Source: Acidimicrobiales bacterium (GTDB taxonomy: Bacteria > Actinomycetota > Acidimicrobiia > Acidimicrobiales > RAAP-2). Taken from it: a DNA stretch of 53,027 bases. Position 1 is the stretch's first letter. Every line of letters begins with the position of its first letter. Made by a program: the position numbers and the translations under genes. The stretch covers positions 1-53,027 of the forward strand of contig JANWIR010000071.1 of NCBI GenBank assembly GCA_025449805.1, written 5' to 3'. The notes beneath the pieces were generated by a model. It was not told the origin of the DNA, did no database searches, and was given only the letters and a program-made list of their open reading frames with translations. Shown here one piece after another: positions 5,761-20,585 of the stretch.

Positions 5761-6206
5761 AGCGTGTCGAGCGCCGTGAGGTGTGCTCGATTCAAGGTCA
5801 CGAGGCAGTTCGCGAACGCCACGGGCGCGAAGGATCCGCCGCCGTAGAGGTCGGAGGCACTCACGCACGTTAAGCGACGTGAACGCTGCCACGACGTCTC
5901 GGCCGTCACGAAGTCTTGGCGCGTCGTGCGGTTCACCAGCGTTCGAAAGATGACGCGACGCTGTTGATTGATGAGGGCGTCGAAATGCAGAACCTCCGCT
6001 TCGGCGCAACCCTCCAATCCGATGGTGGTGGATTGATCACACGTGAGCAGGGTGAAGGACTCGTGAAGGATTGGGGGAGCCGGAGCCTGGCTGCGCGGTG
6101 CACGGTGCCCCGAAGAGGTCGGGGCTGACGTTGCGATGCCGCGCGCCACCTCGCCCGCCGCGAAGGCGAGCAGCACGATGACGACGGTGACGAGAGTTCG
6201 ACGCAC
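5736..6206 (-). CDS. Exported LprI-like (DUF1311) protein
   Basis: A 156-residue protein with an N-terminal signal or anchor helix (LVTVVIVLLAFAAGEVA). The mature part fits the lysozyme-inhibitor LprI N-terminal (DUF1311) pattern: LTCDQSTTIGLEGC, then FDALINQQRRVIF, TAETSWQRSRRLTC, GGSFAPVAFANC and LNRAHLTAL, with four Cys residues at the expected places. LprI proteins of mycobacteria inhibit lysozyme at the cell surface; that role here is inferred. The start is a GTG. The 3' end overlaps the convergent secreted-protein gene by 25 bases. Confidence 0.65.
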   Translation of the reverse strand: MRRTLVTVVIVLLAFAAGEVARGIATSAPTSSGHRAPRSQAPAPPILHESFTLLTCDQSTTIGLEGCAEAEVLHFDALINQQRRVIFRTLVNRTTRQDFVTAETSWQRSRRLTCVSASDLYGGGSFAPVAFANCLVTLNRAHLTALDTLYLPAGTG

Positions 6207-18573: not shown

Positions 18574-19164
18574 ATGAGCAACGTGGAGCGCGACCCTGAT
18601 CGCCCGAGAAAAAGCGATGACACGACGGACGCGCACGCCGCGTTAGATCGGTTCCTGGCCCAGCCACCGGAGCGCGGCTTCGACGATGTGCCAACCGAGT
18701 TACGGGTCACGGTCCCCGCGTCTCGACGCACCTTACGGCAGTTCATCCTCCACTTTCTGTTCGAGAAGGAACCGGGTTCCTCATCGTCGATCGCGCCCCG
18801 TCGGGCTGACGGATTGCGAACCAAGCTTTTTTCTTCAATGGCAATGGGCGCGGTCGCTAAGACGGCAAAGAATCTGCCGACGCTGTTTTGTCAGGCATCT
18901 GGCGAATCAATACAAAATCTGGTGGGCCGCCCGGGTCTCGATCCCGGCACCTTGGGAGTCTGGCCGGACCCTCCAATGGCGTCCGCCGTCGTTCAAATTA
19001 CCTGGTCAAGGTCCTCGTCGGGTCCACCGACGTCCACCGAAATCCTCGCGAATCTGGTGCCCTGGCTACATCATTGGCTACATGAACTTGGTGGCGACGC
19101 CGTTGGGGTTATGCGCTTTGACCACGTCGGTGGTGAGTCAATTGAACTTCGGATTGAGACGTGA
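18574..19164 (+). CDS. Doubtful hypothetical frame running through the tRNA-derived repeat
   Basis: Open frame of 196 codons. The first 75 or so codons (MSNVERDPDRPRKSDD onward, to about 18800) have chromosome-like codon use. The middle is the translation of a 36-bp tRNA copy (VGRPGLDPGTLG), and the last part belongs to the island. If a host gene exists, its 3' end has been replaced by the insertion. The tail TSTEILANLVPWLHHWLHELGG may belong to a different, element-borne frame that is continuous only in a circular form. No family is recognised and no ribosome-binding site is clear. Confidence 0.3.
   Translation: MSNVERDPDRPRKSDDTTDAHAALDRFLAQPPERGFDDVPTELRVTVPASRRTLRQFILHFLFEKEPGSSSSIAPRRADGLRTKLFSSMAMGAVAKTAKNLPTLFCQASGESIQNLVGRPGLDPGTLGVWPDPPMASAVVQITWSRSSSGPPTSTEILANLVPWLHHWLHELGGDAVGVMRFDHVGGESIELRIET
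18922..18957. repeat. attachment-site-like 36-bp direct repeat, distal copy (3' part of tRNA-Lys)
   Basis: Identical to 20512-20547, which is the 3' half of tRNA-Lys (T-arm, variable loop and acceptor strand). The match ends at GGGA before the anticodon. It marks the far boundary of a tRNA-integrated element of about 1.6 kb. Confidence 0.85.
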
Positions 19165-19309
19165 TGGTGTGGAGCGCCACGTGCGCCTCCCGTGCCGTAG
19201 ATTCCAACAAATCGTGCGTTGGTCGCGGGCATTCGCTTGGTGAAGTCGCCAACGTTCGAAACGTGGCTTGAGCAAATCTGAAAGTGGCATCACGTCCCTG
19301 ACTGAAACG

Positions 19310-20317
19310 TTACTGACGCCGCTGATGTTTACTCGCCAGATATTCGTCCACCCACGCGCGAGTACTGCGCCACTGTCCATCAGGACCTTTCTGCGCGCGA
19401 AGTCGTCCCCGTTCTATCGCGGCACGCAGTGAAACCACGCTGCGATCTTTAGTCGAGAGGGCTGCAATGGGAACGAGTCTGTTCGGCCCTGCGACCGCCG
19501 GGACGACAAAGCGGTACAGATTGTCCGTGATGGCGCGTGCGATGAGTTCCCCTAGCGGTCCCGGATCGCCTTCGTCGGCTCGTCGAAGTGAGCGCAGGTA
19601 CTTGGTCCGGTCTCGCTTGTAGATGATGACGGGAGGGTAACCCAAGCGAATCAACACGAGATTGAGCACGAGGCGACCGGCGCGTCCGTTGCCATCGAGG
19701 AATGGGTGGATTCTCTCGAATGCGGCGTGCGCAGCCGCCAGGGACTCAATGGGATTCTCCTCCTTGGTGACACGCGACAGTGACTTCAACCAGTCGGTCA
19801 TCGATGACTCGACTTCGACCCATGAAGGCGGCGTCATCCCGCCGGGGAAGGATTGGATGTCGTGTCGTCGAAAACTACCGGGTCGCTCCTCTGCTGTTGC
19901 GCTGGGGTGCGGAGCGACGCCCCACGCTGGACCGAGCGCGAGTTCGTGCACGTGGCGCACTTCGGTCATTGTGAGGAGAGCTCCGCTCACCCATTCGCTA
20001 GGTTCAAGAGCCTGCGTGTAGACCCATGTCGCGGCTTTTGCGTAGCCGCTCACCTCCATGTACTCGCGAAGTTCTTTGTTCCCGACCGCGAGACCTTGGG
20101 CCAGAAGGGCCTCGACTTGCTCGAGCACGAGAGTGTTGCCCTCGAGCGCGGTTGACTGATGAGCTTCTTGATACCAGATTGAAGTCCAGATGTCTTGCGC
20201 TTCAGCCGGGGACGGCAGACCCCCCATCCGATCGCGCAATTCTTCAACGGCGTCGCTGAGACTTTGATAAATCGACTCTCTCGGAGGACGACCTCGTCTG
20301 GAATTGTTGTGTTCCAC
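19310..20317 (-). CDS. Fic family protein, self-inhibited (class II)
   Basis: A 335-residue protein with the Fic motif HPFLDGNGRAGR at residues 204-215; all catalytic positions (His204, the Asp and Gly-Asn-Gly loop, Arg) are kept, so AMP-transfer activity is likely. The inhibitory motif S-x-x-x-E-G is present at Ser55-Gly60 (STALEG), before the Fic core, which defines class II. The C-terminal 60 residues (TKDRSVVSLRAAIERGRLRAQKG ... RAWVDEYL) look like a winged-helix or similar DNA-binding tail. The start is GTG 20317, eight bases after TATAAT with no ribosome-binding site, so a leaderless mRNA is probable. It lies alone inside the tRNA-flanked island. Target and role are unknown. Confidence 0.88.
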   Translation of the reverse strand: MEHNNSRRGRPPRESIYQSLSDAVEELRDRMGGLPSPAEAQDIWTSIWYQEAHQSTALEGNTLVLEQVEALLAQGLAVGNKELREYMEVSGYAKAATWVYTQALEPSEWVSGALLTMTEVRHVHELALGPAWGVAPHPSATAEERPGSFRRHDIQSFPGGMTPPSWVEVESSMTDWLKSLSRVTKEENPIESLAAAHAAFERIHPFLDGNGRAGRLVLNLVLIRLGYPPVIIYKRDRTKYLRSLRRADEGDPGPLGELIARAITDNLYRFVVPAVAGPNRLVPIAALSTKDRSVVSLRAAIERGRLRAQKGPDGQWRSTRAWVDEYLASKHQRRQ

Positions 20318-20358
20318 TAGAAATAATTATAACACAACAAAATATGATTGTTGTGTTA
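20304..20358 (-). promoter_or_regulatory. Promoter and palindromic operator of fic
   Basis: TAACACAACAA (20330-20340) and TTGTTGTGTTA (20348-20358) form perfect 11-bp inverted arms with a 7-base spacer. A third near-copy (TTGTTGTGTTC, 20304-20314) lies in the first codons of fic. The minus-strand -10 TATAAT (20331-20326) overlaps the first arm, so a bound protein would block transcription. Autoregulation by the Fic C-terminal domain is a plausible inference. Confidence 0.7.
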
Positions 20359-20400
20359 CTCTTTATTTTGCCTTCATTCAACAATTAAGGAGGAGGAGAT

Positions 20401-20457
20401 GTGTGGGACGTATTAACGAAGGAAAGTGTGGATCCGTCCGTTGTTTTGGCTGCATAA
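20401..20457 (+). CDS. Possible 18-codon frame divergent from fic
   Basis: GTG 20401 follows AAGGAGGAGGA, the best ribosome-binding site in the island, and encodes MWDVLTKESVDPSVVLAA before TAA. The same frame then continues open from TTG 20458 into the tRNA repeat. It may be the truncated start of a lost element gene or a short leader peptide. No family resemblance. Confidence 0.3.
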   Translation: MWDVLTKESVDPSVVLAA

Positions 20458-20511
20458 TTGGCTACATTCGAGCCCGAAAGATTATTTAACGCTGCCCTGA
20501 CCTGGGATTTA

Positions 20512-20547
20512 GTGGGCCGCCCGGGTCTCGATCCCGGCACCTTGGGA
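20512..20547. repeat. attachment-site-like 36-bp direct repeat, tRNA-side copy
   Basis: Covers the 3' part of the intact tRNA-Lys plus one flanking base; identical to 18922-18957. Confidence 0.85.
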
Positions 20548-20585
20548 TTAAAAGTCCCCTGCTCTACCCGATGAGCTAGCGGCCC
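20513..20585 (-). tRNA. tRNA-Lys (anticodon UUU)
   Basis: A 73-nucleotide cloverleaf on the minus strand. The acceptor pairs GGGCCGC with GCGGCCC, the D-arm is GCTC...GAGC, the anticodon loop is CTTTTAA (anticodon TTT), and the T-arm is CCGGG-ATCGAGA-CCCGG. The discriminator is A. CCA is not encoded (ACTA follows). Position 27-43 is a G-A mismatch. The gene is intact and serves as the insertion target of the adjacent island. Confidence 0.93.

Follow-up and report, generated by a model that had tools for sequence, protein, structure and literature searches.

How does a 1.6-kb segment carrying a single fic gene come to lie between a tRNA-Lys gene and a copy of that gene's 3′ end? The window examined here, a 53,027-nucleotide stretch of DNA, is contig C71 of an Acidimicrobiales metagenome bin (1.36 Mb in 98 contigs, 75.9% complete). 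ARAGORN places an intact tRNA-Lys(UUU) gene on its minus strand (20512-20585), and the 3′ 36 bp of this gene (the proximal core, 20512-20547) recur on the plus strand at 18922-18957 (the distal core), where both the repeat search and the core survey recover them. The two cores are identical over 36 bp, agree at 39 of 41 bp if extended, and have a spacing of 1590 bp, which confirms what the original prediction had claimed of the tRNA and its repeated end. An intact tRNA gene with a co-oriented, displaced 3′ fragment is characteristic of tRNA-targeted islands, but instead of an integrase gene between tRNA and fragment only a 37-codon 3′ remnant is found. The AT-rich flanks reported earlier exist on the right (46% versus about 60% G+C) but not on the left (57-60% G+C).

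The segment 18922-20547 is probably an internally deleted integrative element that is cis-mobilizable in form. Its ancestor would have carried a tyrosine integrase gene whose 3′ end abutted the tRNA and whose reading frame crossed the attachment core. Loss of most of this gene, together with neighbouring genes, would have left the 36-bp core and an arm-like repeat at each end, with fic as the cargo, and a related integrase belonging to another element at tRNA-Lys could in principle excise or re-insert what remains. The deletion, integrase binding at the arm-like sites and any present mobility are what we infer from this arrangement.

The sole long intact gene between the cores is fic (19310-20317, minus strand, GTG start), whose 335-aa product matches Pfam Fic (E 2e-16) and retains both the catalytic and the inhibitory motif, as predicted. 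Class II Fic enzymes are defined by the catalytic motif HPFx(D/E)GNGRxxR and by an inhibitory motif, (S/T)xxxE(G/N), located N-terminal to the Fic core. The first is present as HPFLDGNGRAGR, and HPFLDGNGR is invariant across nine aligned Fic sequences, that of the window included. The second is found N-terminal to the Fic core as STALEGN (S55-TAL-E59-G60-N61), which aligns with the inhibitory motif of FICD and from which self-inhibition is predicted. The gene appears constrained, with a dN/dS of 0.05-0.07 against five relatives at a dS of 1.6-2.2, which is near saturation. Foldseek with a structure model of the protein (pLDDT 61.5) returns FICD as the top matches; the model was set aside as evidence for self-inhibition because pLDDT falls below 50 over residues 48-64, the stretch of the inhibitory motif. 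SoFic, which is represented by a PADLOC model, is described as an anti-phage protein (PMC12249575). The window protein shares with it the Fic domain and inhibitory motif and matches the SoFic model over residues 17-249 of 335 (E 5.7e-28). The PADLOC model PDC-S04 matches nearly as well (E 9e-26), and among solved structures FICD is the closest relative and the SoFic chains score far lower (E 4e-7). Judging by motifs and homology, the protein is probably a class II, self-inhibited AMP-transferase of the FICD/SoFic kind, and fic is probably a defence or toxin-type cargo.

Upstream of fic lies an inverted repeat, AACACAACAA-N7-TTGTTGTGTT (20331-20357, strand not assigned), a possible operator that perhaps controls the gene. 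In each of the six close fic copies compared, the fic-proximal half keeps the same spacing to the gene, while the fic-distal half is less well kept among them. Of the promoter and operator once assigned to fic, it is thus the operator-like repeat that stands; a sigma-70 consensus scan found no promoter for the gene.

The proposed absence of an integrase holds for contig C71 at the level of PF00589, which has no match there (E 0.001), but not for the right end of the segment. Here, a remnant of an integrase gene 3′ end (20398-20511, plus strand) runs for 37 codons from 20401, with one in-frame TAA. It is identical to the C-terminus of a related integrase, that of genome G152, at 23 of these 37 codons before the core, and tblastn aligns the two at 75% over 57 codons, 20 of which belong to core and tRNA. 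Since this tyrosine integrase remnant adjoins the tRNA, an integrase was once present at the locus. G152 is also the nearest relative by flanks (83% identity to the window on the left, 79% on the right), and in the same neighbourhood it carries, next to tRNA-Lys, a 6788-bp element whose integrase is intact (PF00589 E 2e-22) and which also has an HTH_17 gene. The two elements have homologous ends and different contents: DNA similarity covers 18922-19082 and 20398-20585, and between these only cross-matches of cores and arm-like repeats are seen.

BLAST identity of the ends, with core and tRNA included, is 87.6% and 88.9%; without them it is 84.8% on the left (125 bp) and 81.7% on the right (115 bp). 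Better conservation of the ends than of the flanks was therefore rejected (82-85% versus 79-83% once core and tRNA are removed), and the comparison gives no sign of selection on the ends, a result that bears on selection for mobility and not on the deletion. It counts against the deleted-element reading that in G152 the flanks do not directly adjoin the island: about 1.4 kb separates the left-flank match from the distal core, and the stretch between tRNA-Lys and the right-flank match is some 7.2 kb longer than in the window (G152:C49, 79406-86806). The search for an empty site among relatives, which had been suggested as a check, found none, because the sole relative with both flanks near tRNA-Lys is G152, which is itself occupied; neither excision, nor a circular form, nor an empty site was seen for the segment 18922-20547.

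A second pair of repeats, located inside the cores, is new relative to the original prediction. Repeat and pattern searches identify paired 9-bp repeats with a period of 12 at both ends: on the left TGGCTACATCATTGGCTACAT (19063-19083, plus strand; two 9-mers), at +105 past the distal core, and on the right TGGCTGCATAATTGGCTACAT (20447-20467, plus strand), which starts 65 bp ahead of the proximal core. The pattern TGGCTNCATNATTGGCTNCAT occurs in three of 172 family genomes, namely that of the window (two copies), G095 (two, on one contig) and G152 (one). Among 91 segments cut from core to core in related genomes, whose rows share ancestry, a 9-mer repeat of period 12 stands at +105 in 29 (background 0.46 per offset) and, if only segments lacking a cognate integrase are counted, in 25 of 85 (0.42); the runner-up lag is 10, in eight rows at +61. 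At -65 the corresponding counts are 9 of 91 (0.17) and 4 of 85 (0.11). Both sites of the window sit at positions seen in integrase-bearing relatives, and we read the period-12 repeats as putative arm sites of the integrase. The segment has a core and an arm-like repeat on either side and lacks an integrase, and its form is that of a cis-mobilizable element, a status assigned here from layout. Further points against the main reading are the rarity of right arm-like repeats in integrase-less segments, the 4 of 85 just mentioned, and the origin of the assembly as a metagenome bin. Site-specific integration as such is supported by the core repeat, the arm-like repeats and the intact-integrase element of G152 with its homologous ends.

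The segment could instead be a dead relic, formerly mobile and now fixed, and retained only for the usefulness of fic. The integrase is gone, the remnant contains an in-frame stop, and a cognate integrase is not seen in the window's own genome (no match at E 1e-40, in a genome only 75.9% complete). Four PF00589 matches exist in that genome, all on contigs other than C71, and the two that were checked are distant relatives (E 9e-10 and 1e-6 to a purpose-built integrase HMM trimmed to the catalytic part, excluding the read-through frame after the core). Yet the 36-bp cores are identical and the arm-like sites are placed as in integrase-bearing elements, and a relic of this kind seems to us unlikely. 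A viral origin was considered separately and rejected: exact core and core-plus-arm patterns are absent from the viral contig set, the integrase search of viral contigs returned one relative at 22% identity, and among phage records no match to the integrase reaches 60% identity (best 35%).

The core is widespread in the family. A 35-bp core pattern with up to three mismatches is present in 125 of 172 family genomes and is not a chance match, since the reversed pattern occurs in none of the 172. In the genus, the same search yields 266 copies in 81 of 99 genomes, tRNA copies included, often in tandem; by hand tally of these 99, at least two copies are present in 45, one in 36 and none in 18. 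One genus contig has ten copies if up to nine mismatches are allowed. One alternative needs none of this: a local duplication of the tRNA end, with no integration involved, would explain the repeat and nothing beyond it, and in view of the integrase remnant, the arm-like sites, the tandem cores of the genus and the homology of the ends to those in G152 it is barely credible. No description of such core arrays in this genus was found in the literature searched.

The segments analysed derive from 53 contig pieces chosen for at least two core copies or for fic, a subset of all such contigs. Cutting these yielded 92 segments, of which 91 (83 from the genus, 8 from other family genera) were kept after removal of one of 312 bp; a near-identical array in G078:C57 and G087:C96 was retained in both. 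Six of the 91 contain the cognate integrase domain in whole or in part, and 85 are without it, including all 35 shorter than 3 kb. The PF00589 profile search was limited to 15 genomes; elsewhere, integrase absence means no hit to the purpose-built HMM and the identity search. No PF00589 match (E 0.001) is found on the array contigs G084:C8, G097:C1, G083:C12, G153:C96, G078:C57, G122:C14, G104:C2 and G131:C33, though integrase 3′ fragments occur on some of them. The integrase genes of G169 and G115 stand at the outer edge of their arrays, outside any counted segment. Genus-wide, 13 near-full-length integrases are found at 57% identity or more (the G152 query included), 12 of which have a core copy or tRNA-Lys no more than 100 bp away; the exception is in G083:C54. 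Some cargo recurs in other arrays at 92-96% identity across part of the segment.

These arrays give reason to weigh a rival account of the window segment: the unit was integrase-less when it came, a small cassette that an integrase acting in trans inserted, as perhaps happened with many related units. The scarcity of cognate integrases between cores and the recurrence of cargo both speak for it, and it keeps some probability because both ends of the window segment look intact. In contrast, the homologous ends of the G152 element, diverged about as far as the flanks, fit inheritance at the site.

Several details of the arrays stand on their own. In four array loci, Rfam at the gathering threshold reports a tRNA and a TPP riboswitch and nothing else; the riboswitch lies inside an array segment (L090:14514-14640). 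In L094 (G122:C14), two tRNA-Lys genes at oriented positions 5824 and 7316 are 1492 bp apart within the array, which suggests that an entire tRNA gene is part of one unit, and in L088 (G097:C1:23599) a single core copy is reversed in an otherwise co-oriented array.

The ends of the segments can be sorted into types by single linkage of BLAST matches in register. Left ends form five groups (41, 16, 13, 3 and 2 members) and 16 singletons; right ends form ten groups (25, 10, 8, 3 and six pairs) and 33 singletons. The largest right group pairs with several left groups. Of the right groups with 25 and 8 members, 19 and 8 sequences were aligned; they have in common, directly before the core, a stretch like GCGACCGTTGGGATCCACGAGCGTGAACGTTC that is diverged in some members. 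In the fetched pieces, with up to six mismatches allowed, the core strand has 40 copies of this motif, of which 38 precede a core by 0-40 bp, and neither the opposite strand nor the reversed control has any; with up to eight mismatches it precedes 41 of 142 core copies, and genus-wide it is present in 28 of 99 genomes. The form GCGACCGTTGGGATCCACGAGCGTGAACGTT(C) stands ahead of integrase-less cores in L086 (G153:C96) and L088-L089 (G097:C1), and also at L090 (G103:C182) and at L095 and L097 (G106). A conserved right end of this kind speaks for cassettes inserted in trans. The window, however, belongs to the largest left group (41) and to the right group of integrase tails, so that its right end resembles that of integrase-bearing elements and not the conserved motif. 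Taken together with the G152 ends, this makes an integrase-less arrival unlikely for the window segment, and an internally deleted element remains the preferred reading.

In six integrase genes the frame is open across the core, and in the window it continues past the distal core for 68 codons plus a stop (18958-19164, plus strand), a peptide labelled 'IntC' here (E 1e-35 to an HMM partly seeded with the window sequence). Past the distal core, the integrase frame is the one open longest (median 54 codons versus 19 and 32, n=91), a test that is not independent across rows because left ends share ancestry. A recognisable read-through peptide exists in 43 of 91 segments, in the integrase frame in 38 of the 43. 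Given this frame, the integrase C-terminus would differ between the circular and the integrated form. The 'IntC' peptide as a conserved functional domain was rejected for weak amino-acid constraint, with the frame observation retained: its dN/dS is 0.36-0.86 in six pairs from four integrase-bearing elements, against 0.08-0.12 for the integrase (five computable pairs), and over 444 pairs the median is 0.63, many of the 15 lowest-dS pairs having values close to 1 or higher. A structure model of the peptide is of moderate confidence (pLDDT 71.5, pTM 0.43).

More broadly, the tRNA-Lys(UUU) end in this Acidimicrobiaceae genus may be a platform for cassettes, at which a few integrases would serve tandem arrays of integrase-less units in trans, with standard ends and a cargo rich in Fic, toxin-antitoxin and defence genes. 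We put this forward as speculation, and consider it unlikely. In such a scheme three elements would make up the standard ends: a right motif of 31-32 bp, the 36-bp core and a left end of one of a few types. As the frame of the integrase passes across the core and on into the adjoining left end, array order could set the integrase C-terminus, and so perhaps its activity.

The nearest known kinds are CIMEs, additive islands and the islands of Dehalococcoides. CIMEs are described as related to integrative elements, with two attachment sites and without integrase or transfer genes (PMC3146451), and the window segment resembles them in each of these respects; it differs in its 1.6-kb size, single cargo gene and visible integrase 3′ remnant, and its mobilisation in trans is putative. 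The ssrA islands of Dehalococcoides are reported as tandem, with copies of the target 3′ end between them and 15 lacking an integration module, and integration alters the 3′ end of their integrase gene because this gene overlaps the attachment site (PMC3146451). Tandem units parted by copies of the target end, integrase-less units and a frame over the attachment site are thus common to both, whereas the system described there uses the serine recombinase DsiB and a tmRNA gene in place of a tyrosine integrase and tRNA-Lys, and the segments here go down to about 1 kb. In 'Ca. Methylopumilus', fGI-2 at tRNA-Lys(ctt) is described as an additive flexible genomic island with repeats and segments of 0.33-42 kb (PMC10872708); recurring repeats of a tRNA-Lys end bound segments in both cases, but the phylum and the repeat are different. 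Phage Mx8 has attP within int, and the C-terminus changes upon integration (PMC6070905). There, too, the integrase frame crosses the attachment core; the extension found here, however, is weakly constrained and also present in integrase-less segments. The island finder Islander, as described, needs an integrase and discards candidates below 2 kb (PMC4383910), rules under which small integrase-less units would escape.

The distribution of fic bears on how the window segment came about. The original prediction held that fic in all relatives irrespective of the repeat would speak against an island; in fact, a member of its subfamily is found in 9 of 99 genus genomes, counting that of the window and one weak match, and so not in all relatives. 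Besides the window copy there are five at 81-85% identity (in four genomes), three at 60-61% and the weak one. Four of the five close copies have a co-oriented core copy 172-362 bp from the gene 3′ end (G131 362 bp, core exact; G079 217 bp, four mismatches; G149:C121 172 bp, one mismatch; G153:C98 327 bp, four mismatches; compare 352 bp in the window); for the fifth, G149:C181, the contig extends 295 bp on that side and has no core therein. In the 60% class, the G167 gene has a core on the same contig, 4.2 kb away; around those of G171 and G086, the fetched sequence contains no core. The fic genes of G079, G153 and G149 (two copies, of which one has a shortened frame; L068-L071) are divergent to a primase-helicase gene, which in G149:C121 matches AEP-TOTE (E 6.5e-78) and ResIII (E 6e-25); in the window and G131, fic is without this partner. 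Shrinkage of a larger island around fic is favoured because an integrase 3′ remnant persists and because relatives pair fic with a helicase that the window lacks. A further point against a cassette that arrived small comes from the nearest relative by fic, G131, whose segment is longer and includes an IS1595 transposase. The fic-helicase block starts 157-202 bp past the core in G149 and G079, where the left ends differ by eye; the same block behind different left ends suggests cargo exchange between element types.

Contrary to the original prediction, such a segment is not exceptional as the carrier of a Fic enzyme in this genus, where Fic is a common cargo of these segments. In 81 segments from the genus, together 391 kb, at least six Fic genes were counted, whereas the 162 matches in 201 Mb would predict 0.32, with the window and G131, which were fetched for fic, excluded; the Poisson P of 1e-6 is rough because arrays are not independent, and six may be an undercount because places were matched to segments by eye. 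Fic genes are present overall in 71 of 99 genus genomes, mostly outside core-to-core segments. Cargo was scanned with 133 of the 150 proteins of an ORF table plus the window Fic; the table holds mechanical ORFs of at least 110 aa, up to three per segment, and leaves out G087:C96, the window and segments above 6.6 kb. Among the families listed (the best 25 of 158 and 25 of 163), Fic is the commonest Pfam family in these 134 proteins, with six members including those of the window and G131. Single proteins match the PADLOC models for AbiE, AriA-type and Cas12f. Matches to Cas12f models can also be relatives of the transposon protein TnpB.

If the units move in trans, about 1.5 kb suffices to carry a single defence or toxin gene without a mobility gene of its own, and the genus, with its 266 cores (tRNA copies included) and 13 integrases, offers a natural series for the origin and upkeep of such units. 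Segments of about 1-1.3 kb (L085:9124-10105 and the short ones of L086 and L088) have ORFs that by eye resemble toxin-antitoxin pairs (PIN-like, GNAT-like and Doc); the GNAT-like ORF matches nothing, and the Doc-like ORF matches Pfam Fic.
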